Below are positions 5,155 through 37,279 of a stretch of 37,467 bases of DNA, in pieces. The notes below the pieces were generated by a model. That model was not told the origin of the DNA, did no database searches, and saw only the letters and a list, made by a program, of their open reading frames with translations. How positions within the stretch are numbered: position 1 is the first letter of the stretch; each line of letters opens with the position of its first letter. The DNA is from a virus. The stretch is from positions 1-37,467 of IMG/VR virus record IMGVR_UViG_3300048672_000343, one strand, 5' to 3'. The position numbers were made by a program, and so were the translations under genes.

Positions 5155-6063
5155 ATGAAAATTGAAATAAAAAATAAGTTGGATTTAAGCGTAATTTTTA
5201 GCCACGAATGTGACAATAACTCGATAAAAATCACACTTGAAAAAGCTATAGAACTAGAAGCTGCTCTAAGCAATGCAGACCTAAGAAATGCAGACCTGAG
5301 CAATGCAGACCTAAGTTGGGCAGACCTAAGTTGGGCAGACCTAAGCAACGCAAACCTAAGCAATGCATGTCTAAGCGGGGCAATACTATGTGATGCAGAC
5401 CTAAGAGGGGCAGACCTAAGCGATGCATGTCTAAGCAGTGCGACTCTAAGCGGTGCAGACCTAAGCAGTGCAACTCTAAGCGATGCAGACCTAAGCAGTG
5501 CAACTCTAAGCAGTGCAACTCTAAGCGATGCAGACCTAAGCAATGCAGACCTAAGCGGGGCAGACCTGCGCAGTACAAACCTAAGTAGAGCAGTACTGCG
5601 CAGAGCAGACCTAAGCAATGCAACTCTAAGCAATGCAGACCTAAGCGGTGCATTTTTAAGCAGAGCAAACCTAAGCGTGGCAAACCTAAGCAACGCAGAC
5701 CTAAGAAATGCAGACCTAAGAAATGCAGACCTAAGCGGTGCAGACCTATGTGGTGCAGACCTATGTGATGCAGACCTAAGAGGGGCAGACCTAAGCGATG
5801 CATGTCTAAGCAGTGCTTTTTTAAGTGGTGTAGACATGCGTTGTAGTGTGGGCAATATGAAAGAAATAAAAAACATATCTCTCGAAAAATGGCGGGTGGT
5901 TTTTACTAAAGATATTATGGCAATAGGATGTCAACAGCACTCTATAGACAAATGGAAAAATTTTGACGAAGATGAAATATGTGAAATGAGTACCCATGCC
6001 CTTTCGTGGTGGAAAAAATGGAGGGAATTTATTTTTATGGCGATTAAACTAACTCAAAGTTAA
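5155..6063 (+). CDS. Pentapeptide-repeat protein, paralog 1
   Basis: A 302-aa protein in three parts. An N-terminal cap (residues 1-35, IEIKNKLDLSVIFSHE) is followed by about 38 pentapeptide repeats of the A(D/N)LSx type (about 36-227), then a 75-aa C-terminal domain with CSVGNM, AIGCQQH and SWWKKWREF motifs. Pentapeptide repeats fold into a right-handed quadrilateral beta-helix; some (Qnr, MfpA) mimic DNA and bind gyrase. The cap and C-terminal domain are shared with pentapeptide proteins I recognise from other phages, whose function is unknown to me. It is the first of three tandem paralogs between the Cys-cluster protein and DNA polymerase, so a role with DNA or topoisomerases during replication is a reasonable but unproven inference. 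GAGG lies 8 bases before the start. Confidence 0.9.
   Translation: MKIEIKNKLDLSVIFSHECDNNSIKITLEKAIELEAALSNADLRNADLSNADLSWADLSWADLSNANLSNACLSGAILCDADLRGADLSDACLSSATLSGADLSSATLSDADLSSATLSSATLSDADLSNADLSGADLRSTNLSRAVLRRADLSNATLSNADLSGAFLSRANLSVANLSNADLRNADLRNADLSGADLCGADLCDADLRGADLSDACLSSAFLSGVDMRCSVGNMKEIKNISLEKWRVVFTKDIMAIGCQQHSIDKWKNFDEDEICEMSTHALSWWKKWREFIFMAIKLTQS
5260..5835. repeat. 15-bp-period repeat tract in paralog 1
   Basis: The DNA encoding the pentapeptides is itself repetitive, with a 15-bp unit resembling GCAGACCTAAGCAAT and third positions strongly conserved. Because the unit is a multiple of three, slippage or recombination adds or removes whole pentapeptides without a frameshift. 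Similar tracts lie in the next two genes. Confidence 0.85.
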
Positions 6064-6073: not shown

Positions 6074-6862
6074 ATGAAAATTGAAATAAAAAATAAGTTG
6101 GATTTCAGCGTAATTTTTACTCATGAATGTGACAATAACTCGATAAAAATCACACTTGAAAAAGCTATAGAACTAAAAACTGTTCTAAGCAGAGCAAACC
6201 TAAGCGGGGCAGACCTAAGTAGAGCAATCCTGTGTGATGCAGACCTAAGCGGGGCAATACTACGCAGAGCAGACCTAAGAGGTGCATTTTTAAGCAGAGC
6301 AATCCTATGTGATGCAGACCTAAGCGGTGCATTTTTAAGCGGTGCAGACCTAAGAGGTGCATTTTTAAGCGGTGCAGACCTAAGCGGTGCTTTTTTAAGC
6401 GGTGCAGACCTAAGAAATGCAGACCTAAGCAATGCAAACCTAAGCTTGGCAATCCTCTGTGATGCAGACCTAAGCGGTGCAACTCTAAGCGATGCAACTC
6501 TAAGCAATGCAGACCTAAGCAATGCAACTCTAAGCAATGCAGACCTAAGCAATGCAGACCTAAGCAATGTAGACCTACGCAGAGCAGACCTAAGCGATGC
6601 ATGTCTAAGCGGTACAAACATAAACGGCGCAAATCTGCGTTGTAGTGTGGGCAATATGAAAGAAATAAAAAACATAATGCTAGACAAGTGGCGGGTGGTT
6701 TTTACTAAAAATATTATGGCAATAGGATGTCAACAGCACACTATCGACGAATGGAAAAATTTTGACGAAGATGAAATATGTGGAATGAGTACCCATGCCT
6801 TGTCGTGGTGGAAAAAATGGAGAGAATTTATTTTTACCGCTATTGAACTAACTCAAAGTTAA
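6074..6862 (+). CDS. Pentapeptide-repeat protein, paralog 2
   Basis: A 262-aa protein with the same three-part plan as its neighbours: a 35-residue cap, about 30 pentapeptides and the 75-residue C-terminal domain. The first 117 bases of the gene look identical to those of paralog 3, while the C-terminal domain is close to paralog 1 (KNIMLDKWRVVFTKNIMAIGCQQH). It therefore looks like a mosaic of the two, or the most recent duplicate. The shorter repeat tract would give a shorter beta-helix, about 7-8 coils against 9-10. It starts 10 bases after the paralog 1 stop with GAGG in between, so it should be co-translated. Function is unknown; DNA mimicry or gyrase modulation is possible. Confidence 0.9.
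   Translation: MKIEIKNKLDFSVIFTHECDNNSIKITLEKAIELKTVLSRANLSGADLSRAILCDADLSGAILRRADLRGAFLSRAILCDADLSGAFLSGADLRGAFLSGADLSGAFLSGADLRNADLSNANLSLAILCDADLSGATLSDATLSNADLSNATLSNADLSNADLSNVDLRRADLSDACLSGTNINGANLRCSVGNMKEIKNIMLDKWRVVFTKNIMAIGCQQHTIDEWKNFDEDEICGMSTHALSWWKKWREFIFTAIELTQS
6190..6635. repeat. 15-bp-period repeat tract in paralog 2
   Basis: The same 15-bp coding repeat as in paralog 1, with an alternating block in which Ala-Phe-Leu units (GCATTTTTAAGC) recur every 30 bp between about 6285 and 6410. This indicates local amplification of a two-pentapeptide unit. Confidence 0.8.
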
Positions 6863-6873: not shown

Positions 6874-7767
6874 ATGAAAATTGAAATAAAAAATAAGTTG
6901 GATTTCAGCGTAATTTTTACTCATGAATGTGACAATAACTCGATAAAAATCACACTTGAAAAAGCTATAGAACTAAAAACTGTTCTAAGCGGGGCAATAC
7001 TGCGCAGAGCAGACCTAAGCAGAGCAAACCTAAGCGGGGCAGACCTAAGCAATGCAGACCTAAGCAATGCAAACCTAAGCAATGCAGACCTAAGAGGCGC
7101 ATTTTTAAGCGGTGTAGACCTAATAGGCGCAAACATGCGCTGGACAAGCATAAGCAGTGCATGTCTAAGCGGAGCAGACCTAAGAAATGCAGACCTAAGA
7201 AATGCAGACCTGCGCAGTACAAACCTAATCAGTGCAACTCTAAGCAGAGCAATCCTATGTGACGCAGACCTAAGCGAGGCAAAACTTGATGGTGCAGACC
7301 TGCGCAGAGCAATCCTATGTGATGCAGACCTAAGAGGGGCAGACCTGCGCAGAGCAGATTTAAGTAGAGCAGACCTGCGCAGTACAAACCTAAGTAGAGC
7401 AGTACTGCGCAGAGCAGACCTAAGCGGGGCAAATCTAAGCAGGGCAGACCTAAGCAATGCAGACCTAAGTAGAGCAAACCTAAGCAATGTAGACCTACGC
7501 TGGACAAGTATAAGCGGTACAAACATAAACGGCGCAAATCTGCGTTGTAGCGTAGGCAATATGAGCGACATTTTTTCAGTGCAACTTGAAAATTGGGAGA
7601 TTTCTTTTACTAATAATGTTTTAGCTATTGGTTGCCAACAGCACTCTATAGATAAATGGAAAGAATTCACCGATAAAGAAGTTTCAGAGATGGATATTGA
7701 CTCGCTTGTATGGTGGAAAAAATGGAGAGAATTTATTTTTACCGCTATTGAACTAACTCAAAGTTAA
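6874..7767 (+). CDS. Pentapeptide-repeat protein, paralog 3
   Basis: A 297-aa protein with the 35-residue cap, about 37 pentapeptides and a 75-residue C-terminal domain. The cap DNA is identical to paralog 2, and the last stretch (WWKKWREFIFTAIELTQS) is also the paralog 2 version. Between them the C-terminal domain is clearly diverged (SDIFSVQLENWEISF...EMDIDSLV). The repeats include non-standard units such as MRWTS and LRWTS that add Trp/Arg to the helix surface, and several Ser-Thr-Asn units. This suggests an older, functionally distinct paralog whose ends have been homogenised by gene conversion. It lies directly before DNA polymerase, with the shared junction sequence providing the polymerase ribosome site. 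Confidence 0.9.
   Translation: MKIEIKNKLDFSVIFTHECDNNSIKITLEKAIELKTVLSGAILRRADLSRANLSGADLSNADLSNANLSNADLRGAFLSGVDLIGANMRWTSISSACLSGADLRNADLRNADLRSTNLISATLSRAILCDADLSEAKLDGADLRRAILCDADLRGADLRRADLSRADLRSTNLSRAVLRRADLSGANLSRADLSNADLSRANLSNVDLRWTSISGTNINGANLRCSVGNMSDIFSVQLENWEISFTNNVLAIGCQQHSIDKWKEFTDKEVSEMDIDSLVWWKKWREFIFTAIELTQS
6985..7545. repeat. 15-bp-period repeat tract in paralog 3
   Basis: A third copy of the pentapeptide-coding repeat tract, less uniform than the other two, with more CGC-AGA (Arg-Arg) units. It includes a roughly 45-base block, TGCGCAGTACAAACCTAAG and following, that also occurs in paralog 1 at about 5575. Confidence 0.8.
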
Positions 7768-15552: not shown

Positions 15553-18315
15553 CTATTGTCTTTGATTGACTAGTCTGTTTTTAGACGGTCTTTTGTCATC
15601 TTCTTTGTCTCTTGTCATTCTGTCTATAAGGTCACTGGTATACTGTATTGTGGACAGGTTGGGGTTAGCCTGTTGTGCCTGATACAAAGAATGTATTAAA
15701 TTTGCAGATGATAGATAACCTGAACGCGTTCTTCCATCAATGCCTTTGCCTTTATACGGTAGGTTCAACCAGCCTGTCTCCAATGGGTAGCCGCCATACA
15801 TTATCCTGTTAGCCTGTACGATGTCCTTTATTTTAGGCATGGTACTTGCAGGTGTACGGGTAAAACTATGCAGAATACTGTCAGGGCTTGCCTGTCCGCG
15901 TGAGTCCACACTAGGTTTTTTCTGCTTAGTATCTATCTCATGCAGTCTTGCGATATGTTGCAAGGTGGACTTTGCATCTTCTCTTGTACCAAACATATTT
16001 TTTTCAGTTTCACCTCTTAAACCGACACCTCGCAAGGCATCTCCAAGCATACCTTCTTTATCATTGCTTATAAAATTGTACAGACGTTTTTTGCTAACAT
16101 TGCCGCCCATGTCCAGTCCATGTTCTTCCAGTACCTTGTACATGGCGTACTGAGACTTAGCATTGTTTACGGTGTTGGTATCAAACGGACCGCCGCCTGC
16201 ATCAGTAGCTTTGTTAATCTCAGTCAGTATGTCGTCTAACGCACCTGCATAGTAAGTACTTTTTACACCCTGGTGTCCGTTACGATACTTTATGTCTTTT
16301 ATAGCACCGCTTAACTCGTCTCTCAGTTTTACAAGTCTTTGTCCTTCCAGAGTTGCAGGTTGGAATTTGCCTGTACCCGGTTCTCTAATGGATACCAGAT
16401 GGTCTTTCAATGGTGTTAAACTGTCTGCGACACCATTGTACAATTGTTTTAAATTGGCATCACCGCTCAGGTCTGCTTTTGACTTTAGTTTGCTGAGATG
16501 AAAATCTAACGTTCTTAATGTCTCAGGTTGCAACCTGCCGTCTTTCGCCGCCTGTTGTAGAATTTTTCCTATTGGGTTTATCTGAGTCGCATAAGTACTG
16601 GCATAGTCTTTGACTACTTCAGTTGTACCGTCATCAAGCTCTCTTGTCACCTTCGGTGCATCGTCTATAAGCGACTTTAGTTTCAATGTTATAGGTGCGT
16701 TTGTTTTACCACTGAAAGATTGCGGATTGAACCGCATGGCAGTCTCTCTATACCCCTGAATAGCCTGTCTGTAAGAGTCGGCTAATCTGTACGCACGTTT
16801 ACCTTCAGGAGTCTGGTTTCTTCCCAGCTCATCAACAACATTATTTATATTGTCCATATTCTCTTTTGAGAATCGTGCTACTGAGTTATTCTCTATGTTG
16901 TCAAATTGCTCTTTGAGAACTTTAAGACGGTCTGACATCACCTCAGGAGAAAGAGTGGTAATTTTATCAGCCGCTTCTTTGGGCATACCAAGCACATTTT
17001 TTGCTACTATTCTGTTTAATGCTATCTGATTATTAGCATCAAACGCAGCCACCTGGTCAAGTGTCTCAGGGCTTTGTCTGAATTTCCCCATATCAGCCTG
17101 CAATTTTGCATTGCCGTACTTCATACCTAATGGCGGCTGATAGCCACCTCTTTCAAGGAAACTTAGCGTCTCTCTATAGGCAGGACCTACGGAGTTTATC
17201 TTTGGATTATCCAGTCTGCTTAATCCAGGACCAATGGCAGCATTGGTACCACCTGCCATCAAACCTGCAAGCGCACCAACACCGGCAGTCATGTCAGGTC
17301 TTAGCCATCCTTCGCCTGCACCAAGTAGTGTGCTGCCTAAAATATTGTCCAGTGCGCCAACACGAGGGTCAAAGGCAACCGCTTTAACCGCATTTGCTGC
17401 CTTTAACGCTGCTGCCGCTTTCGGTATGGTGAACTCTGTGGCAACCTTTTTTCTGAACGCTTCTGTACCGAATTTGTTGGCAAGGAACTCAAACGATTTC
17501 GATGCCGCAGTGGAAGGCACTTCCACCGCCATCTCGGCAGCCGACTGTGCGGTGTCTGCAACGGTCTTACCTATTTTTGTTGTTATCTCTGAAGCATTGG
17601 GTCCTAAAGCAATATAAGGCAAAAAACTACCAAGAAATCCAGGTATTCCTACCTCTTTTTGAAGTGCCTGATTGTACGGCAGATTTTCTTCATAGTTATT
17701 GTCTCGTTCGTCTACTCTATTCAATGCCGCATCATACATCTCTGTCAGTTTTTTATTTGCTGTATCACTGTGAAATGGCATTAATCTGTTTATACCTGCT
17801 TCACCGGCTATGGCATAGTCGCCAAGATTTGCAAGTCCATGTCTTAGCATCTCTGTGGTGTATCCTGCACCGAGCATGTACTTGTTCTTTCTAATACTAT
17901 CAGATTTATATGGAGCAAGACTTAAAGAAGTATCTGTATCTGTAACTTCTCTTTTGTTCTTGCCATGACCGATAGTTCTTTTTATATACTCCGTGTTTCT
18001 GACAAATGGTGCAGGGTATGGGTTTGAACTTCTGACATCTTCTTTGGCATTGTAGTACGCATCCTGCTTATACAAAGGCAGTCCTTGCAAAGACATTTGT
18101 TCAGCAGAAATATCTTCATTTCGCATTGTTTCAGGGTCTTTAAAGACAGATTGTCTTGCAGTGTCGATTCTTTGCTGTGGTGATTGAATGACAGGAACGT
18201 CAGGCGAGACTAACTGTTGCTGTTGTGCTTTGTACTGTGCAAAAAGACGTGCCGCTTCTTCAGTATCACCATTTTGGTATGCTTCTACAGCCTGCTGTTG
18301 CAAATCATTTTCCAT
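15553..18315 (-). CDS. Large internal virion / DNA-ejection protein
   Basis: A 920-aa virion protein. The N-terminus (QAVEAYQNGDTEEAARLFAQYKAQQQ) is a helical TPR-like or coiled segment. Residues about 270-370 contain Ala/Gly-rich hydrophobic stretches (AAALKAANAVKAV, GALAGLMAGG) that could insert into membranes. The rest is long charged helices with a polar C-terminus (DKEDDKRPSKNR). Size, position at the end of the tail cluster after a lytic transglycosylase gene, and the mixed helical and membrane-active composition match the internal core proteins of podoviruses (T7 gp15/gp16, P22 gp16/gp20 types) that form the trans-envelope channel. No enzymatic motif was seen. The start overlaps the end of the transglycosylase gene by 11 bases. 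Confidence 0.72.
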   Translation of the reverse strand: MENDLQQQAVEAYQNGDTEEAARLFAQYKAQQQQLVSPDVPVIQSPQQRIDTARQSVFKDPETMRNEDISAEQMSLQGLPLYKQDAYYNAKEDVRSSNPYPAPFVRNTEYIKRTIGHGKNKREVTDTDTSLSLAPYKSDSIRKNKYMLGAGYTTEMLRHGLANLGDYAIAGEAGINRLMPFHSDTANKKLTEMYDAALNRVDERDNNYEENLPYNQALQKEVGIPGFLGSFLPYIALGPNASEITTKIGKTVADTAQSAAEMAVEVPSTAASKSFEFLANKFGTEAFRKKVATEFTIPKAAAALKAANAVKAVAFDPRVGALDNILGSTLLGAGEGWLRPDMTAGVGALAGLMAGGTNAAIGPGLSRLDNPKINSVGPAYRETLSFLERGGYQPPLGMKYGNAKLQADMGKFRQSPETLDQVAAFDANNQIALNRIVAKNVLGMPKEAADKITTLSPEVMSDRLKVLKEQFDNIENNSVARFSKENMDNINNVVDELGRNQTPEGKRAYRLADSYRQAIQGYRETAMRFNPQSFSGKTNAPITLKLKSLIDDAPKVTRELDDGTTEVVKDYASTYATQINPIGKILQQAAKDGRLQPETLRTLDFHLSKLKSKADLSGDANLKQLYNGVADSLTPLKDHLVSIREPGTGKFQPATLEGQRLVKLRDELSGAIKDIKYRNGHQGVKSTYYAGALDDILTEINKATDAGGGPFDTNTVNNAKSQYAMYKVLEEHGLDMGGNVSKKRLYNFISNDKEGMLGDALRGVGLRGETEKNMFGTREDAKSTLQHIARLHEIDTKQKKPSVDSRGQASPDSILHSFTRTPASTMPKIKDIVQANRIMYGGYPLETGWLNLPYKGKGIDGRTRSGYLSSANLIHSLYQAQQANPNLSTIQYTSDLIDRMTRDKEDDKRPSKNRLVNQRQ

Positions 18316-24475: not shown

Positions 24476-26686
24476 TTAACCTATTCTTATCTGTAAGGGT
24501 GTGCCACTTGTCTTGTATTCATGGTCTACCGCATTTAGTTCTTCTATCGCTTCTTTAAAGCGATTATCCCACATTTGTGCTGCTGCCGAATCTTTTACAT
24601 AAGCCGATATTTCAACCAGTAAGCCAAAGATATATGCGTTAGGATTGTAGTTACTTAACCAGTTGGTGTTCTCAGGTAATAACAAAGGAACTATTCTTGC
24701 GTTGTAAACTATTTCTAGTGTATAGGTGTCATCAAGAATAGGGAATATATTTAACTTGTTAGCCACAATACAATAAATAGGACCACCAAAACCGCTATAG
24801 CTCGCAACATTCATTTGTTCTGGATTAACTAATTGATAGGTTGTAGTACTACTTTTACTATCATTAGGATAACAGAATATTTCAGTTAGATTCATAAAAT
24901 CAATTGGTAAAACGTATCTGCCATCAGTTGGATTGGTGACGTAACTGAGACGACTTGAGGATGTTTCCAATTTAATAACATTGTTAATTCTATTCTCAAC
25001 CATTCGTATAAAAGACGGCATCAAATTAACCAGATTTGCATCCTGTCTATCTGCTATCTCAAGTGTCATGTCTATTAATTCTTGCTGGTTCATTTCTGTA
25101 AACCTGTCTAAAAATGTTTCATTGGTTAAAAGTGCTGTTGATGTAGCAGTACAATAAGAATTGCTGCTCCATGTTATAGACATACCGACAAATAAATCAC
25201 TTGTAGCTATTGCCTGTGCTATTGCAGAACTGCCAAGCTTTATCTGTGTCGTCATAGTGCTTGATGCACTTGCAACTGACGCGCTGTTGTTTGTAAATCT
25301 TATTGCAGTCGTTAAACTTTCCGTACTTGATGCAACAGACTGGCAGCTGCCTGTCAATGCCGCAAAATTTCCAAGTACGCTTGTTGCTGAGACTACGGAC
25401 TGTGCAGAACTATTTAACTTTATTGAAGTGGTTAAATTTGCAGTACTTGACGATACTGCTGAATACGCACCACTTAAACTCTTACCTGTAGTTAAAGAAG
25501 CAGACACTGCAACTACTGCGGTTGCTGCCATAGCAACAGTAATACTTGTAGTTAGGTTAGATGTTAACGTTACTATTGATTGTGCCGAACCATTCAGTGC
25601 TGTAGCAGACCCAGATAGGTTGCCTAATGTTGTTACTACAGCAGATGCAGAACCAGATAAAGATATGGAAGTAGTCAGGCTGCCTGTAACAGATACTGTA
25701 TTTGTATTAACAGAAGAAAGACTGATACCTGTTGTAATGTTGCCAGTAGAATTAACAGAAGCTGAAGATGTTGAACTTAATGGTATACCTGTAGTTAAAC
25801 TTGCTATTGCAGTCGTAGTATTTTGTACGGTTGCAAATAACTCTATAGATGCACTAGCATCAAAAAACCAGTCATTCCAAATCGTTTTTTCAGTGGTATC
25901 TAAGTCGCCCTGCTGAACCGACTGATATAACAGGGATGTACTTGACCTGCCGTTTGATTTTCTCTTTATTGCCCAACTGTTAAAACTGTCGCCTTTGCCC
26001 GTGATGTCGGTCGGTGTCGGTGGTGTCCATGATGACGGAGGAACATTGATTACAAAACCAGAATAACCCGACGATGCTGCCGCGCCTGTCGTAGCAGTTA
26101 CAGTGATTGCTCCCGTCGCACCCGCTGATACATTATCCTTTGTCTGTACCTCTGACGCTATCCATAACGCGGGGTCCGATGACGACTCTCTATCAGTAAA
26201 CCCTGTTGCCGCTGATATGGTCCATACGCTTGTTAATACAGTTTTATCAAGCTGTGTTGCCGCGATTAAATCGTCGCCGCTGCCCGCAATAACACCGTTA
26301 AGAGGGATAGTTATCGGCGGTGAGTTATAACTCCAATTTTGGGTTGAACCGATGGACGCGGGTGCTACATTGCTACGCCCTGAAAACGCCACACAGTGGA
26401 TTGTATAGTGGGCAGAGTAGTCACAGGTAAATGTATAAGACTCGCTGCCAGTGGCGTTTTTTATCTCATAGATTTGTAGTGAGGATGTATCTGGACTGTT
26501 TGGCGGATTGCCGTTAAATGCAATCTGCCGCCATGCCGAACCAGCGGGCGGGATAACACCCGCTAAAAACTGGTCTATGGATATAATTGCATAAAGCCTA
26601 TCGCCAGCCGTTACGCCAGCGGGTGCAGTACCGGCTATGGTAAAACTGTTTGAGCCGCTCCCTGTCGTGGACGAACGATAAGCCAC
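24476..26686 (-). CDS. Fusion of repeat-rich tail protein to head-tail adaptor
   Basis: A 736-aa protein starting at GTG (AAGGAT upstream). Residues 1-230 form a beta-sandwich-like domain (FTIAGTAPAGVTAGDRLYAI, VAFSGRSN, SGYSGFVINVPP) as in phage surface or carbohydrate-binding proteins. Residues about 285-524 are 11-12 repeats of 20 residues with consensus SxxVxxTxNLTTSIxLxGSA, probably a beta-solenoid. Residues 525-736 match the podovirus head-tail adaptor: QELIDMTLEIADRQDANLV, FIRMVENRINN, RYVLPIDFMNLTEI, YTLEIVYNARIVPLLLPENTNWL, AYIFGLLVEISAYVKD. Adaptors are normally separate proteins of about 200 aa bound under the portal, so the fusion is unusual. A possible internal ATG at residue 532 (about 25093) could yield a free adaptor. 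Confidence 0.75.
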   Translation of the reverse strand: MAYRSSTTGSGSNSFTIAGTAPAGVTAGDRLYAIISIDQFLAGVIPPAGSAWRQIAFNGNPPNSPDTSSLQIYEIKNATGSESYTFTCDYSAHYTIHCVAFSGRSNVAPASIGSTQNWSYNSPPITIPLNGVIAGSGDDLIAATQLDKTVLTSVWTISAATGFTDRESSSDPALWIASEVQTKDNVSAGATGAITVTATTGAAASSGYSGFVINVPPSSWTPPTPTDITGKGDSFNSWAIKRKSNGRSSTSLLYQSVQQGDLDTTEKTIWNDWFFDASASIELFATVQNTTTAIASLTTGIPLSSTSSASVNSTGNITTGISLSSVNTNTVSVTGSLTTSISLSGSASAVVTTLGNLSGSATALNGSAQSIVTLTSNLTTSITVAMAATAVVAVSASLTTGKSLSGAYSAVSSSTANLTTSIKLNSSAQSVVSATSVLGNFAALTGSCQSVASSTESLTTAIRFTNNSASVASASSTMTTQIKLGSSAIAQAIATSDLFVGMSITWSSNSYCTATSTALLTNETFLDRFTEMNQQELIDMTLEIADRQDANLVNLMPSFIRMVENRINNVIKLETSSSRLSYVTNPTDGRYVLPIDFMNLTEIFCYPNDSKSSTTTYQLVNPEQMNVASYSGFGGPIYCIVANKLNIFPILDDTYTLEIVYNARIVPLLLPENTNWLSNYNPNAYIFGLLVEISAYVKDSAAAQMWDNRFKEAIEELNAVDHEYKTSGTPLQIRIG
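25115..25834. repeat. 60-bp-period coding repeats in the fusion protein
   Basis: About 12 units of 60 bp encode 20-residue repeats (for example QSIVTLTSNLTTSITVAMAA, TAVVAVSASLTTGKSLSGAY, QSVVSATSVLGNFAALTGSC). Most are exactly 20 residues; one is 21. They diverge at DNA level, so the repeats are old. Confidence 0.8.
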
Positions 26687-31645: not shown

Positions 31646-31894
31646 TTATTGTTTCTCTAAGTTGAGTTGTTGTTGGGCTAAATAGCCAGTCTCTATGTCA
31701 GTCTTGATAGACTGTTCAATATACTGGATTGCCTTAAGTCGATGACTTATCTCAACCAATGCTTCTGGCGATTCAGCATTTTTAAATTCTGTGTAGATTA
31801 TAGCAAATTGCTTGGCAATATACTTGTCAAAGTAACTGTCCCATACATTTTGGGCTACTCTGCCTATTCTTGCTTCTTCCTGTAAATCTGTCAT
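31646..31894 (-). CDS. Hypothetical 82-aa helical head-cluster protein
   Basis: An 82-aa helical protein (TDLQEEARIGRVAQNVWDSYFDKYIAKQFAIIYTEFKNAE...). Two-base gap to the scaffold gene, ATGA overlap with the zincin-like paralog upstream. Similar-sized helical proteins sit between portal and scaffold genes in many podoviruses and may help portal or procapsid assembly. No motif identifies it. Confidence 0.6.
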   Translation of the reverse strand: MTDLQEEARIGRVAQNVWDSYFDKYIAKQFAIIYTEFKNAESPEALVEISHRLKAIQYIEQSIKTDIETGYLAQQQLNLEKQ

Positions 31895-32655
31895 TGTGAC
31901 ACCATCGGTGGATAGTAAAAATTACGCCCTCTTTGCAGTAATTCATCTATTAAAGATTTACTGACAATTTTACGCGCTTGATTAGCGGAATTTTTCATAT
32001 GAGGTACTTTATCTTCCATTATGCCCATACGATAGGCAGCATTTTCATTGTTTCTACTATCATAAAGCTCCAATAATTTATTGTAATCAGATAGCTTTTT
32101 TTCTTTATCTTTTGAATTTGCAAACTTTTTTTCTGCCAGATTGCGAAGATAGTTTGTGTCATAATTTAAGTCTGACGTACTATTATCAGGGTACATCTGA
32201 GTATACGGATGTATCATATCAAGCAATCCAATCGGCATAACACTTCTATGTCCTGCCATTCTTGCCTGCATCTCACCTGGATGACTGTCATAGTCCTGTC
32301 TGGTAAGTTCTTTATTGTTATTTATAAACGGACCTACAGGAAGATTATTCTCTGCTTCATTTGAATGTTGAAGTTCATGGTTTAGTGCCATTAATTTGTC
32401 AGAATTGGTAAAAAGACTGTTTATCATTGTACCAGCAGATTTATCTTTTCTTTGTCTGAATATAGTTCCACCACCAAGGTTTAATGGAAGCACTTTTTCC
32501 ATAACACCACTTGGCATCTCTGGACCAAGAGTTCTATTAGACTCACCTTGCATGACCGTATTTCCAGCGTTATCTATCCAAGGATATTGTCTGTATCTAG
32601 CCCATAGTTCTTCTGGACTCATACCATTTTGATAGTCGTACAGTGCTTGAGACAT
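31891..32655 (-). CDS. Zincin-like metallopeptidase, paralog B (portal-downstream)
   Basis: A 254-aa protein. Residues 3-25 (QALYDYQNGMSPEELWARYRQYP) are almost identical to the start of the protein upstream of the portal. The central region has a zinc-peptidase signature: HELQH at 93-97 and a downstream conserved Glu in HPGEMQAR (E128) as third ligand. A charged helical segment (about 160-215) follows, then a C-terminal tag LIDELLQRGRNFYYPPMVS, also shared with the paralog. The HExxH and Glu pattern fits zincin metalloproteases, so it may be a virion or head-maturation peptidase. Activity is inferred, not shown. It lies between portal and the 82-aa gene. Confidence 0.6.
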   Translation of the reverse strand: MSQALYDYQNGMSPEELWARYRQYPWIDNAGNTVMQGESNRTLGPEMPSGVMEKVLPLNLGGGTIFRQRKDKSAGTMINSLFTNSDKLMALNHELQHSNEAENNLPVGPFINNNKELTRQDYDSHPGEMQARMAGHRSVMPIGLLDMIHPYTQMYPDNSTSDLNYDTNYLRNLAEKKFANSKDKEKKLSDYNKLLELYDSRNNENAAYRMGIMEDKVPHMKNSANQARKIVSKSLIDELLQRGRNFYYPPMVSQ

Positions 32656-32657
32656 TG

Positions 32658-34790
32658 TTAGTCATCTCCTGAAACTTCGTTCATGTTTTCTTCAAAGTTG
32701 TCGCTTTGTTCAGTACCAGTATTTGCTTCAATCTCGGTCAGTTTAAGACCTGCATCTATCAGCATCTTACGGTATTTATACTCCAACTCACCTACTTTTG
32801 CATCCGAATCTGCGGATGTTTTAGCTGCATCCAACTGAGTTTGTAATTCACCAATTCTAGCCTCATAGTTAAGCTTATCCATTTCGCGCTGCTGTTTAGC
32901 CAACTCTGCCTGTCCCTTGTACTCCACAGCTTTTGCCTGTGCCTCAGCAGTTGTTGTCGCTGATTTAGCAAGTTCTGCCTGTGCGCGCAATGTCTCGATT
33001 TGTACCTGCTCATTCTTTTGTTTCTCCTCCTGACTTGACTGACCTGCCTGTTGCGCCGCCTGTTGACCTTCTGGTGAGTTAGGGTCAACGAAGAACTTGT
33101 TCGCACTGTGTAAACCGGATAACTTGCAGAACTCGTCCAATGCGGCGTATGCCTTTATCGGATTTACCAGAGTTTGCCCCGGTACTGCCTGTATTAAACC
33201 TTGTGCCTGCATTATTTTCTCTACTGCGGCAAGACGACCTGACACATCACCGCTACCTGTTCCAACACGAACAGTGCATTTTGAACGTTCTCCCCATTCA
33301 GAAGGATTTACCTGTATCCACTGACCTTTAAACTTAAAGTTCTGGATAGAGTCTGTGTGCATTGTTACCAGGTCTCTTATTTTGAGACACAAAGGTTTGA
33401 TGGCAGTCTCACAAATGACTCTAATCATCAGTCCTACAAGTTCTTCCTTAGCATTCATCAGTCGGTCAACACCCTGTGAACCTACTCTATCACCTATGTT
33501 CTGCGGTGACGCGGAACCGTCTGAGGAGACACCGGTTCTACCAGCTCTAATTTCGTCTAAGTAGTTGAGCATGGTAAACCCGGCTTCCCCAATCATAGGT
33601 GTTACTAATGACTGTATTGCATCAAGACGTTTGACTCTGATAAGTCCTCCAGGTCTTGATACCATCATGTCATCAAGATTCACCTGTCCATCCAGCACTA
33701 TATTACGCTGGTTGTTTTGCAGATAAAGGTTGTCCATGATGTTTCTTATAAGGGCAATCTTGTTGTCCTGTATCTGTTTAAGGCGGTCGAATATGGACAG
33801 TCCCTTGAACTTGTGCGACATAAGAATAGCCGTGCCGCTAATCCACGGGCATGAGTCCAGAGGTTCTACCTTAAGCACTTTTGTAGGCGGTTCCATACCT
33901 GCAACAGTGACTTTATACAGTTGCGCTATACCTTTGCCGTCATAGTCCATACGAAGATAGCACTCGGCAATCTCGATAAGTTTTTGCGACTCATCGTCAG
34001 AAGACCAACTGGGTATGAGTGTTGACTCGTCCTGATAATTGAAACGATACGACGAACGAAGCAGGTCTGCCGACATCAATCCCTCAAGGTCTGACTCGCT
34101 GTACCCTTCCTCCATTAGTTCTGAAATTGTCTTGTTGACTATATGTGCAGAGAACCGTGCGCTATCAAGGAAGATAGAGTCATGCTGACTATTAACACGG
34201 AAGTTCTCGGGTGCAACACAGTCTACAACCACTTTACCAGTTGGATTGGTAACGGCAATCTCAACGTCATACAACATTGTCAGAGGATTTTGTTCTGCCG
34301 ACACAATCTCTGCGTTTTTGGCACTAAGTATTACGTTGAGTGCCTGTTCGCTTATGCCTGAATAGGAATAGGTTTTGATTTGTGTGGAGTCGTCATAGTA
34401 GACCTTTAGAAGACCGTTGCGCTGGATAAGCGCATCCTTTACCATCTCGTGTATCAGGGTAAACCCATTGTTCTGTTTCATCAGAACGTCATAAACGTAC
34501 TCTGACTCTATCTCCGCCTGCAACTCGTCCTCAGGACCCAGAGGGTCAAATGTCACCACCTCGTTGTTCTGGGTGAACGATTTCATTATCTGAGGAAGTA
34601 TCCACTCCACGGCATCGGCAACGTCGGTGGAAACCAACTGACTGCGCCCCTCAACCTCTGTGCCATTGGGTCTGCCAAGGTAGTATTCGAGCGGTTGTTG
34701 CAACGATGGCGAGGTATTGGTGGTAATGTCTGAATTTGATAGCTCATTGGCTATAATGGACAATACCTGCGAGTCAGTCAGTTTGCTCAT
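32658..34790 (-). CDS. Portal protein
   Basis: A 710-aa portal of the large P22/epsilon15/BPP-1 type. Recognisable segments are an N-terminal helix LTDSQVLSIIANEL, EYYLGRPNGTEVEGRSQLVSTDVADAVEWILPQIMKSF (typical of podovirus portals), NGFTLIHEMVKDALIQRNGLLKVYY, and CVAPENFRVN. The wing and stem region ends near residue 570, followed by a long Gln/Ala/Glu coiled-coil barrel (about 580-690) and an acidic tail (EENMNEVSGDD). It forms the dodecameric DNA gate between capsid and tail. ATG 34790 is preferred to the in-frame TTG three codons earlier. The start lies 2 bases after the stop of the 22-aa mini-gene. Confidence 0.9.
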   Translation of the reverse strand: MSKLTDSQVLSIIANELSNSDITTNTSPSLQQPLEYYLGRPNGTEVEGRSQLVSTDVADAVEWILPQIMKSFTQNNEVVTFDPLGPEDELQAEIESEYVYDVLMKQNNGFTLIHEMVKDALIQRNGLLKVYYDDSTQIKTYSYSGISEQALNVILSAKNAEIVSAEQNPLTMLYDVEIAVTNPTGKVVVDCVAPENFRVNSQHDSIFLDSARFSAHIVNKTISELMEEGYSESDLEGLMSADLLRSSYRFNYQDESTLIPSWSSDDESQKLIEIAECYLRMDYDGKGIAQLYKVTVAGMEPPTKVLKVEPLDSCPWISGTAILMSHKFKGLSIFDRLKQIQDNKIALIRNIMDNLYLQNNQRNIVLDGQVNLDDMMVSRPGGLIRVKRLDAIQSLVTPMIGEAGFTMLNYLDEIRAGRTGVSSDGSASPQNIGDRVGSQGVDRLMNAKEELVGLMIRVICETAIKPLCLKIRDLVTMHTDSIQNFKFKGQWIQVNPSEWGERSKCTVRVGTGSGDVSGRLAAVEKIMQAQGLIQAVPGQTLVNPIKAYAALDEFCKLSGLHSANKFFVDPNSPEGQQAAQQAGQSSQEEKQKNEQVQIETLRAQAELAKSATTTAEAQAKAVEYKGQAELAKQQREMDKLNYEARIGELQTQLDAAKTSADSDAKVGELEYKYRKMLIDAGLKLTEIEANTGTEQSDNFEENMNEVSGDD

Positions 34791-34792
34791 GT

Positions 34793-34861
34793 CTAGCAAC
34801 CTTTCTTTTTAGGCTTACCCGGCATAGGCATTTTTTTAGGTGGTGTCTTAGGCTTAGCCAT
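34793..34861 (-). CDS. 22-aa Lys/Pro-rich mini-protein
   Basis: An ATG-led frame of 22 codons: 8 Lys, 6 Pro, 3 Met, ending KKKGC. It begins at the TAATG shared with the stop of the zincin-like gene, has a strong AGGAGAC ribosome site 7-8 bases upstream, and ends 2 bases before the portal ATG. It fits the pattern of coupled translation in this operon, so I call it real despite its size. A strongly basic, Pro-rich peptide could contact DNA or the portal. It may be widespread but missed by gene finders. No homolog can be named from the sequence alone. Confidence 0.6.
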   Translation of the reverse strand: MAKPKTPPKKMPMPGKPKKKGC

Positions 34862-35529
34862 TATTTGTCTCCTGATATTAGTGGTGGATAGTAGAAATTA
34901 CGACCTGATTGTAGCAGGTCTATAAGACTTTGTTTAGGTGCCCATTTTTTTCTGCTGTTATTGAATTCTATAGCATCATTACTCTGCTCTTGCGGTATTG
35001 ATGCAAGTTTAATTATCTGTTCTATGATATTAACCTTCTTCTCAATAGGCAGGTCTGTTCTGTTGCCAAAATATCTCGCCGTTTTTGCTAGGTCTATACC
35101 TTGTACCGACCCATATTCCGCCATGTGTGCCAATGACAACGGATTAACCATGTCCTTTATTTTATCAGGAAAATAGCTCATATTCGAGACTATTCTTGCC
35201 TGCGCCTCCGCAGGATTGTCAATATACGGAGTATTGACGTGCATGTCACCACCATCTTTGTACTGTCTGTCATGTGTTGTCTCATGGTTGAGTGTCCTCA
35301 ACTGCAGCCCTCTGTCAAGCAGACTGTTTACCGTCACGTGACTCCCCGGTGTGTAGTAACCGCGTAAGTAGGGTATAAACTCCTGTAACTTGATATTATC
35401 AGGCATCACAGGACCTTTAATATGCTCAGGCTCAGAGTATAGTTTATCCTCCATAGGATATTGTCTGTATCTTGCCCACAGCTCCTCAGGACTCATGCCG
35501 TGCTGATAGTCATATAACGCCTGTGCCAT
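34861..35529 (-). CDS. Zincin-like metallopeptidase, paralog A (portal-upstream)
   Basis: A 222-aa protein. The start QALYDYQHGMSPEELWARYRQYP and the end SLIDLLQSGRNFYYPPLIS match the paralog downstream of the portal. The middle has HETTH at 82-86 with Glu108 in NPAEAQAR, the same spacing class as HELQH and HPGEMQAR in the paralog. Outside these three blocks the two proteins differ in sequence. The conserved metal-binding pattern plus shared end tags suggest a duplicated zincin peptidase that uses its ends to dock on the same partner, perhaps portal or scaffold. It shares a base with the terminase stop and precedes the 22-aa mini-gene. Confidence 0.6.
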   Translation of the reverse strand: MAQALYDYQHGMSPEELWARYRQYPMEDKLYSEPEHIKGPVMPDNIKLQEFIPYLRGYYTPGSHVTVNSLLDRGLQLRTLNHETTHDRQYKDGGDMHVNTPYIDNPAEAQARIVSNMSYFPDKIKDMVNPLSLAHMAEYGSVQGIDLAKTARYFGNRTDLPIEKKVNIIEQIIKLASIPQEQSNDAIEFNNSRKKWAPKQSLIDLLQSGRNFYYPPLISGDK

Positions 35530-37004
35530 TAGATTATACCTCTATTGTCGTAAGTGATTGCCTTATTGTCATAGCCACCTATTATACGCGCGTCACCGAC
35601 TGCACCGAGACACAAATACTGACAGGAGTCCGCTATATGACTGAATCTGCCTTTGTCTGGTTTGTCCATGTATCGCTCCTCGCCAGATACCTGCATACGT
35701 CTCATGGCATATCCACCAGAAAGAGCTTTGCGTAGTGTCGGCGCACCGTCAGTGACGGCAAAACTCGGACTGCCTGTGAAGTCAAGCCGCTGCATAAGGT
35801 CTGCCATGACCTCACGCCGTATGGTGAAATCGTTTGTGTAGGTAGGATATGCGTTGATGCCCTGCTCAGCCAGCACCATGTAGGGTGTGTTCTCATCGGT
35901 TTGTGCGCGTTGCTCGCCTGCCGGGTCACCATACACCTCTGCAGTGAAGTCCCGATACTTGGTGGACAGCCGTTGATGCAACAGACGACCGAACGATACA
36001 GCCCCCATGTTGAACGTCACCAGCTCGTCGAAGATAACCAGTCGCCCTGCGGGTGTGAACTGACCAATGGAAGCGGCAGGCGTAAGTCCGAAGTCTATAC
36101 CAACATAGAGCGGTAAGGTAGGTATAGGTGTAAATGACGGTATATGGTGTATGTCGTCGTTGTACTCAGGGAACACTGGTGCGCCGTTCATGACCAGACC
36201 GTATGTGCCGTGTATGTATACATTTATCCACTCCTGCTGTTTACCAATCATTAGATTGGTGTAGTAACCTGTCTTAAGGTTCTTTAAGTTCTCAGCCTCA
36301 GGCGATATGCCAGATGGTTGCCTGAACAGTATATGGTTTGACGGGCATGGTCTCCACTCGCCTGTTTTAGGACTTATATGCCCCTCGAACAGGTCATGCC
36401 ACCAGTGGTCTCTATCAGGTGGGTTGGTGTCCATTATAACACCATCGAATGTCGCCTCCTGGTGTATATCCACAGACGGATAACGCCCACAACGCCCCTG
36501 TATAGCTTCGACAATTGCTAGTGAAATCTCTCTTGCCTCATTAATCCATGCGGCAGTAATCTCAAGCGACAACACTTTACCAATATCGTCAGGTTTGTCC
36601 AATGCCCTGAACAGAAACTCAGCAAACATTACTGTACCGTCACTCAAATCCTGCTCAAGCGTGAATGTCATTGTCAGGTTAGAAAAGTGACCAGATTCTT
36701 TAGGTATCCAGTCAAAGAACGTATTAATTGTGGTGTCAAGCAGTTCACGATATGTATTTCTTACGACAGAAAAACGTGTCCTGCGTATAGGCTTGTTCAG
36801 GTAATACGGTATACCATCTCTATATTCCCTTTCATAACCTCTATCAGGTTCCTGATTCATTGCGATAAGCAGAAGTTCCATTACGCAGGTAACGGACTTT
36901 CCTGAACCGAACGGTCCCATAATACCTCTGACAAAACCAGTTGTTTTATCACGCGCATCGTGAAATTTCTTACCTGTTGGTGACGGTCTGTAAATCTTGT
37001 CCAT
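35529..37004 (-). CDS. Terminase large subunit (ATPase-nuclease)
   Basis: A 491-aa DNA-packaging motor. ATPase domain: Walker A GPFGSGKS (residues 30-37), and hydrophobic Walker B followed by Asn-Glu in LEITAAWINEARE. Nuclease domain (RNase H fold): LYVGIDFGLTPAASIGQF with the first Asp, VYGDPAGEQRAQTDENTPY with the second, and HIADSCQYLCLG near the C-terminus with the third. It would cut concatemers and pump DNA through the portal. It is the first gene of the leftward late operon. Upstream of the ATG at 37004 I see no clear Shine-Dalgarno (TATTTAACCAAAC), unusual for this operon. The small subunit gene is not adjacent in this window. Confidence 0.93.
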   Translation of the reverse strand: MDKIYRPSPTGKKFHDARDKTTGFVRGIMGPFGSGKSVTCVMELLLIAMNQEPDRGYEREYRDGIPYYLNKPIRRTRFSVVRNTYRELLDTTINTFFDWIPKESGHFSNLTMTFTLEQDLSDGTVMFAEFLFRALDKPDDIGKVLSLEITAAWINEAREISLAIVEAIQGRCGRYPSVDIHQEATFDGVIMDTNPPDRDHWWHDLFEGHISPKTGEWRPCPSNHILFRQPSGISPEAENLKNLKTGYYTNLMIGKQQEWINVYIHGTYGLVMNGAPVFPEYNDDIHHIPSFTPIPTLPLYVGIDFGLTPAASIGQFTPAGRLVIFDELVTFNMGAVSFGRLLHQRLSTKYRDFTAEVYGDPAGEQRAQTDENTPYMVLAEQGINAYPTYTNDFTIRREVMADLMQRLDFTGSPSFAVTDGAPTLRKALSGGYAMRRMQVSGEERYMDKPDKGRFSHIADSCQYLCLGAVGDARIIGGYDNKAITYDNRGII

Positions 37005-37097: not shown

Positions 37098-37150
37098 TAC
37101 GATAAATACTTTTTGTAATTCAAATACATGAATAGCATACAAGATATTTA

Positions 37151-37279
37151 TTTCTGAAATCCAAAAAATTTTTTCTGAAATCCAAAAAATTTTTTTCTGA
37201 AATCCAAAAAATTTTTTTCTGAAATCCAAAAAATTTTTTTCTGAAATCCAAAAAATTTTTTTCTGAAATCCAAAAAATG
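37151..37279. repeat. Six 22-bp A-tract iterons
   Basis: The core CTGAAATCCAAAAAAT occurs six times, starting at 37154, 37175, 37197, 37219, 37241 and 37263 (spacings 21, 22, 22, 22, 22). Each is flanked by T-runs, so AAAAAATTTTTT blocks recur about every two helical turns. Such phased A-tracts give intrinsically curved DNA and repeated binding sites. Known analogues are phage packaging or origin iterons; which applies here is not shown. Confidence 0.92.

Follow-up and report, generated by a model that had tools for sequence, protein, structure and literature searches.

Two paralogous genes on either side of the portal gene

The window analysed here is a whole IMG/VR virus record (IMGVR_UViG_3300048672_000343; 37,467 nucleotides) and carries the structural module of a LUZ24/SU10-type podovirus. 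On the minus strand, its genes follow in the order terminase, A (222 aa), portal, B (254 aa), a protein of 82 aa, scaffold and capsid. The portal protein matches the Pfam family SU10_portal (PF23899) with an E value of 5.6e-161, and Pfam or PHROG matches identified the capsid protein as SU10_MCP, the scaffold as phrog_3927 and the terminase as phrog_2. As an earlier note made from the sequence had described, A and B are two paralogs with common ends that flank the portal gene, and both open reading frames were confirmed on the minus strand. The features of this region are as follows.

35529-37004, minus strand: terminase large subunit, phrog_2 (PHROG match)
34861-35529, minus strand: protein A, 222 aa, divergent solo zincin in the gap between terminase large subunit and portal (open reading frame, paralogy, profile comparison)
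35455-35529, minus strand: A residues 1-25, conserved N-terminal segment, LPD23-like element or 'tag' (alignment, codon comparison)
35272-35286, minus strand: A residues 82-86, HETTH (motif)
35194-35208, minus strand: A residues 108-112, EAQAR, with Glu108 as predicted third zinc ligand (alignment, motif)
34873-34929, minus strand: A C-terminal tail, SLIDLLQSGRNFYYPPLIS (A/B comparison)
32658-34799, minus strand: portal protein, SU10_portal, phrog_1216, with A and B on either side (profile match)
31891-32655, minus strand: protein B, 254 aa, divergent solo zincin in the gap between portal and 82-aa protein (open reading frame, paralogy, profiles, model)
32581-32655, minus strand: B residues 1-25, conserved N-terminal segment; in the model, two helices and then a beta hairpin
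32365-32379, minus strand: B residues 93-97, HELQH, within modelled helix 84-102 (motif, model)
32260-32274, minus strand: B residues 128-132, EMQAR, within modelled helix 126-137 (motif, model)
31897-31956, minus strand: B C-terminal tail, SLIDELLQRGRNFYYPPMVS, modelled at low confidence
31646-31894, minus strand: small 82-aa protein, directly after the portal in relatives without B (comparison with relatives)

The stop codon of the terminase gene is overlapped by the start of A (TAATG), and the end of B overlaps by 4 bases the start of the gene for the 82-aa protein. Both genes therefore look translationally coupled to the packaging genes.

Elsewhere in the window, the protein encoded at 24476-26686 (minus strand) is a fusion in which a repeat-rich stretch of some 500 residues precedes an SU10 adaptor domain (residues 532-722). 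On the plus strand, three paralogous pentapeptide-repeat genes in tandem (5155-6063, 6074-6862 and 6874-7767) have their N- and C-terminal ends in common and contain 15/75-bp repeat arrays, and an AT-rich 22-bp tandem repeat (37146-37278, 6.1 copies, 97% match) lies close to the window end.

Conservation of the shared ends

A and B are 31% identical (E = 1e-29). Their residues 1-25 are the same at 23 of 25 positions (92%) and their C-terminal tails are 76% identical, which bears out the near-identical start and end that had been claimed for them. The helices carrying HExxH and the glutamate are 32-33% identical, and the other regions 9-23%. The match of the tails includes a one-residue indel (SLIDLLQSGRNFYYPP in A, SLIDELLQRGRNFYYPP in B). 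When both proteins were aligned with two relatives, about a dozen of some 175 columns between the ends were invariant, including H82, E83, H86 and E108.

Among A, B and L016a, a homolog from a phage of the same type, the N-terminal segment is 80-92% identical and its synonymous sites have diverged. Over these 25 codons, A and B differ by 11 synonymous and 2 non-synonymous codons, and B and L016a by 15 and 3, respectively. This divergence indicates that the common start is kept by selection at the protein level, and it rules out a recent gene conversion of the A and B ends.

A six-frame search found neither end tag elsewhere in the window. The 920-aa protein encoded at 15553-18315 (minus strand) begins with QQAVEAYQNGDTEEAARLFAQYK, which resembles the N-terminal tag; it was rejected as a further copy because the shuffle p value of 0.01, obtained for one of 27 proteins, is not significant after correction. 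Pattern searches returned chance matches, of which 17 to the C-terminal pattern GRN[FY]YYPP in IMG/VR, in unrelated or tiny frames, and 3 to the N-terminal pattern in bacterial genomes.

Relationship to LPD23-associated zincins

Neither A nor B has a Pfam match above the cut-off or any PHROG or NCBIfam match. Searches of named phages and IMG/VR with the single sequences found no relatives, and against the family HMM these sequences scored no better than shuffles. A search with the two-sequence alignment of A and B, however, led to L016 and L017, which belong to the same phage type. In these phages a homolog (L016a) lies directly before the portal gene, and in L016 also after the terminase gene. 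B is nearer to L016a (E = 4.6e-52) than to A, so that A is probably the faster-changing copy. Directly before its terminase gene, L016 encodes a 452-aa protein, L016b, with the same succession of motifs as A and B (GATTQDIWKKYKLYPWKDNSGNQV, LLHEITHAQQ and GEAQAR).

The profile of A, B and L016a aligned with L016b from the N-terminal tag to GExQAR (hhalign E = 1.6e-9), and L016b aligned with a set of 58 LPD23-zincins (hhalign E = 3e-17; hmmsearch E = 4e-23). Compared directly with this family, the A/B/L016a profile aligned from HExxH to GExxAR (hhalign E = 2e-5), the glutamate motif of A and B falling on GEVEAR. Through L016b the N-terminal tag is aligned to the LPD23 segment; Pfam gave no PF18838 match on A or B. 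As the single-sequence scores stay at shuffle level and direct database matches are absent, membership rests on L016b and on profile comparison. L016b also matches large proteins of Pseudomonas phages AF and F116/H66, where Pfam places LPD23 just ahead of the zincin; according to its annotation, gp60 of H66 was detected in virions by mass spectrometry. IMG/VR yielded more than 500 related stretches. HExxH is present in 58/58 family members, a universality favoured by the partial use of the pattern HE[LV]QH to gather the set, and the glutamate motif in nearly all of them where this region is covered.

The HExxH and later E.QAR motifs reported by the earlier note are present in both proteins, as HETTH and EAQAR in A and HELQH and EMQAR in B, and correspond to the HExxH and GExxAR features of the LPD23-zincin. 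Despite an overall identity of about 30%, A, B, L016a and L016b all retain the zinc ligands and the HExxH glutamate. In phage polyvalent proteins this zincin is reported as the most frequent domain; HExxH lies in one helix, the glutamate that serves as third ligand in the next, and the role of the domain, processing or effector, has been left open (Iyer et al. 2017, PMC5512222). Our literature search found no paper on LPD23 in phages, which is weak evidence given its limited coverage. Pfam revealed no further domain in A (222 aa) or B (254 aa), so that they lack the multi-domain make-up of polyvalent proteins. By profile comparison, A and B are relatives of the LPD23-associated zincin domain, not polyvalent proteins in the strict sense, and this relation is well supported. 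An undescribed kind of protein had been suspected; judged from sequence, the pair is instead a minimal, duplicated and tagged form of the known LPD23-type zincin, which is common in phage polyvalent proteins.

The pattern of conservation nevertheless sets A, B and L016a apart. In the LPD23-zincin set, the LPD23 and HExxH parts are conserved about equally (0.49 and 0.55), whereas in this subfamily conservation is much stronger at the start than in the HExxH helix (for A and B, 92% and 32% identity). LPD23 ancestry alone is therefore insufficient to account for the 'tag'. The segment appears to correspond, at least in part, to the LPD23 element, likely has a binding role, and may be a packing signal. 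Of the common docking tags proposed by the earlier note, the start may have a role in docking or head packing, given its strong conservation in the subfamily, but it also appears to be in part an LPD23 counterpart. The same contrast would be expected if A and B were pseudo-peptidases, in which the N-terminal segment does the work and the retained fold has an accessory function in binding or structure; we consider this improbable, all ligand residues and the HExxH glutamate being intact in A, B, L016a and L016b.

Predicted structure

The model of B, built from 30 sequences, has a pLDDT of 72; confidence is good for residues 1-40 and for both catalytic helices but low for residues 208-254, which include the tail. 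From the N-terminus the model runs through two helices, a beta hairpin and another three strands to the HExxH helix (84-102), after which comes the glutamate helix (126-137). IrrE/PprI has a zinc peptidase fold with HExxH and a distal glutamate, and among the chains aligned with VIA-align it provided the four best alignments of the B model (93-96 residues, rmsd 4.0-4.7, within model residues 13-144), with Z scores of 5.7-6.0; a Z score near 6 to IrrE is not proof by itself and could reflect a common arrangement. Polyvalent-protein (LPD) entries are among the best BFVD matches. The topology of the B model fits a zincin, but Foldseek found no significant match in the PDB and the model of A, from four sequences, is not usable (pLDDT 40). 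Together with the profile-profile links and the catalytic residues kept in every relative examined, the B model supports the zincin call.

The likeness to IrrE/PprI raises the question of whether A and B are never packed and act inside the cell, as ImmA/IrrE-like regulators or counter-defence peptidases directed at a repressor or a defence protein. One relative, L079, passes the Pfam Peptidase_M78 cut-off, as this reading would have it. A and B themselves have no Peptidase_M78 match in Pfam, their genes sit in the packaging operon, and the best-documented members of the family are virion proteins. We regard an intracellular regulator as improbable.

The terminase/portal slot in related phages

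In the nearest named phages (VA-RY-3, Ss1, PaP3 and tf), the genes for terminase, portal and small protein abut or nearly so, and both A and B are missing, which marks them as accessory genes. Other relatives carry LPD23-zincins in this region. In L091, such a gene lies between the terminase and a phrog_1216 portal, in the slot of A. It lies directly before a phrog_1216 portal in L117 and L118, before another portal in L079, and directly before the terminase in L077, L125 and EBPR podovirus 3 (gp3). Overall, a terminase or portal neighbour was found at 7/21 short-ORF loci examined, one of them a gene away; this is a lower bound, 20 neighbours having been scanned, and the loci were counted without correction for independence. 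The view that no zinc protease accompanies the head genes of such phages does not hold for these relatives.

The L091 protein also carries an ART-PolyVal domain (E = 2.4e-15), the ADP-ribosyltransferase of polyvalent proteins. This LPD23-zincin-ART-PolyVal fusion (L091:2731-4281) is likely an injected ADP-ribosyltransferase, and its presence in the slot of A is as expected of injected cargo. In L004, a different HExxH protein (AAHESIHPLQH; L004:6533-7693) is encoded just after an SU10-type portal; it was rejected as a family member, its match to the LPD23-zincin profile being weak and local.

The position of A and B, both inside the terminase-portal-scaffold operon, would also suit proteases that act during assembly on portal, scaffold, capsid or ejection proteins. 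Their common ends could bind one assembly partner, and Iyer et al. 2017 (PMC5512222) connect the processing of P1 DdrB with its zincin domain. The ends of capsid, scaffold and portal proteins are comparable in phages with and without the genes, however, with no extra cleavable propeptide in those that have them. As related head modules also do without both genes, the head-maturation system put forward by the earlier note is disfavoured, and the effector domain of the L091 protein in the slot of A weighs in the same direction. A study of the LUZ24-type structural module mentions no protease, which is weak evidence. We hold an assembly protease to be unlikely.

A proposed role as head-packed cargo

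We favour the reading that A and B are duplicated, minimal, divergent LPD23-type zincins of a single domain, probably carried in the head and delivered along with the DNA, with a probability of roughly 0.55. The two accessory genes sit in the terminase-portal-scaffold operon and would be expressed late, along with the packaging genes. Entry of their products into the head would depend on the conserved N-terminal segment and perhaps on the tail; the proteins would exit with the DNA and the ejection proteins, and then cleave either a host protein or phage proteins that had been ejected. From late expression to the choice of substrate, these steps are all inferred. The reference LPD23-zincins lie in large virion proteins, and in P1 DarB an N-terminal signal of fewer than 30 residues targets the protein to the head (PMC9024508).

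More tentatively, the terminase/portal spot in LUZ24/SU10-type podophages might be a loading site for head-delivered effectors based on LPD23-zincins. A and B would then be a minimal duplicated pair of two peptidases with two substrates, and their 25-residue start a portable head-targeting signal; this broader proposal is possible rather than probable. The role of the zincin in polyvalent proteins would become testable here, since the free-standing A and B are easier to express and delete than a virion protein of several thousand residues. Their common start offers a specific candidate head-targeting signal, and the recurrence of the slot provides a rule for finding further head-delivered cargo.

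Comparison with known systems

The closest described counterparts are the polyvalent proteins with LPD23 (PF18838) and a zincin metallopeptidase (Iyer et al. 2017, PMC5512222), such as gp60 of Pseudomonas phage H66 and gp16 of AF. Like A and B, they have HExxH and GExxAR in successive helices and are encoded with virion genes; the helices follow an LPD23 segment, of which the A/B start is a putative counterpart. In contrast, A and B are solo proteins of 222-254 aa, too divergent for the Pfam LPD23 family, with a shortened middle part and a start and C-terminal tail specific to their subfamily. The solo LPD23-zincins of EBPR podovirus 3 (gp3) and of the IMG/VR loci L091, L117, L118, L125, L077 and L079 share both family and slot with A and B; next to those of L091, L117 and L118 lies a portal gene of the same family (phrog_1216). 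They are longer (335-517 aa), with an N-terminal extension of about 90-165 residues ahead of LPD23, and none has the A/B tags; that of L091 has the extra ART domain. IrrE/PprI and ImmA (Peptidase_M78) resemble A and B in the modelled core, with HExxH and a distal glutamate, but A and B have no M78 match. The putative metallopeptidase DUF6782 (PF20573) gave weak partial matches near HExxH in A (E = 0.037) and L016b (E = 0.0045), all below the Pfam cut-off. Finally, P1 DarB and the T4 internal proteins, in which a short N-terminus directs the protein into the head, offer a possible parallel to the A/B start, one of function rather than of sequence.
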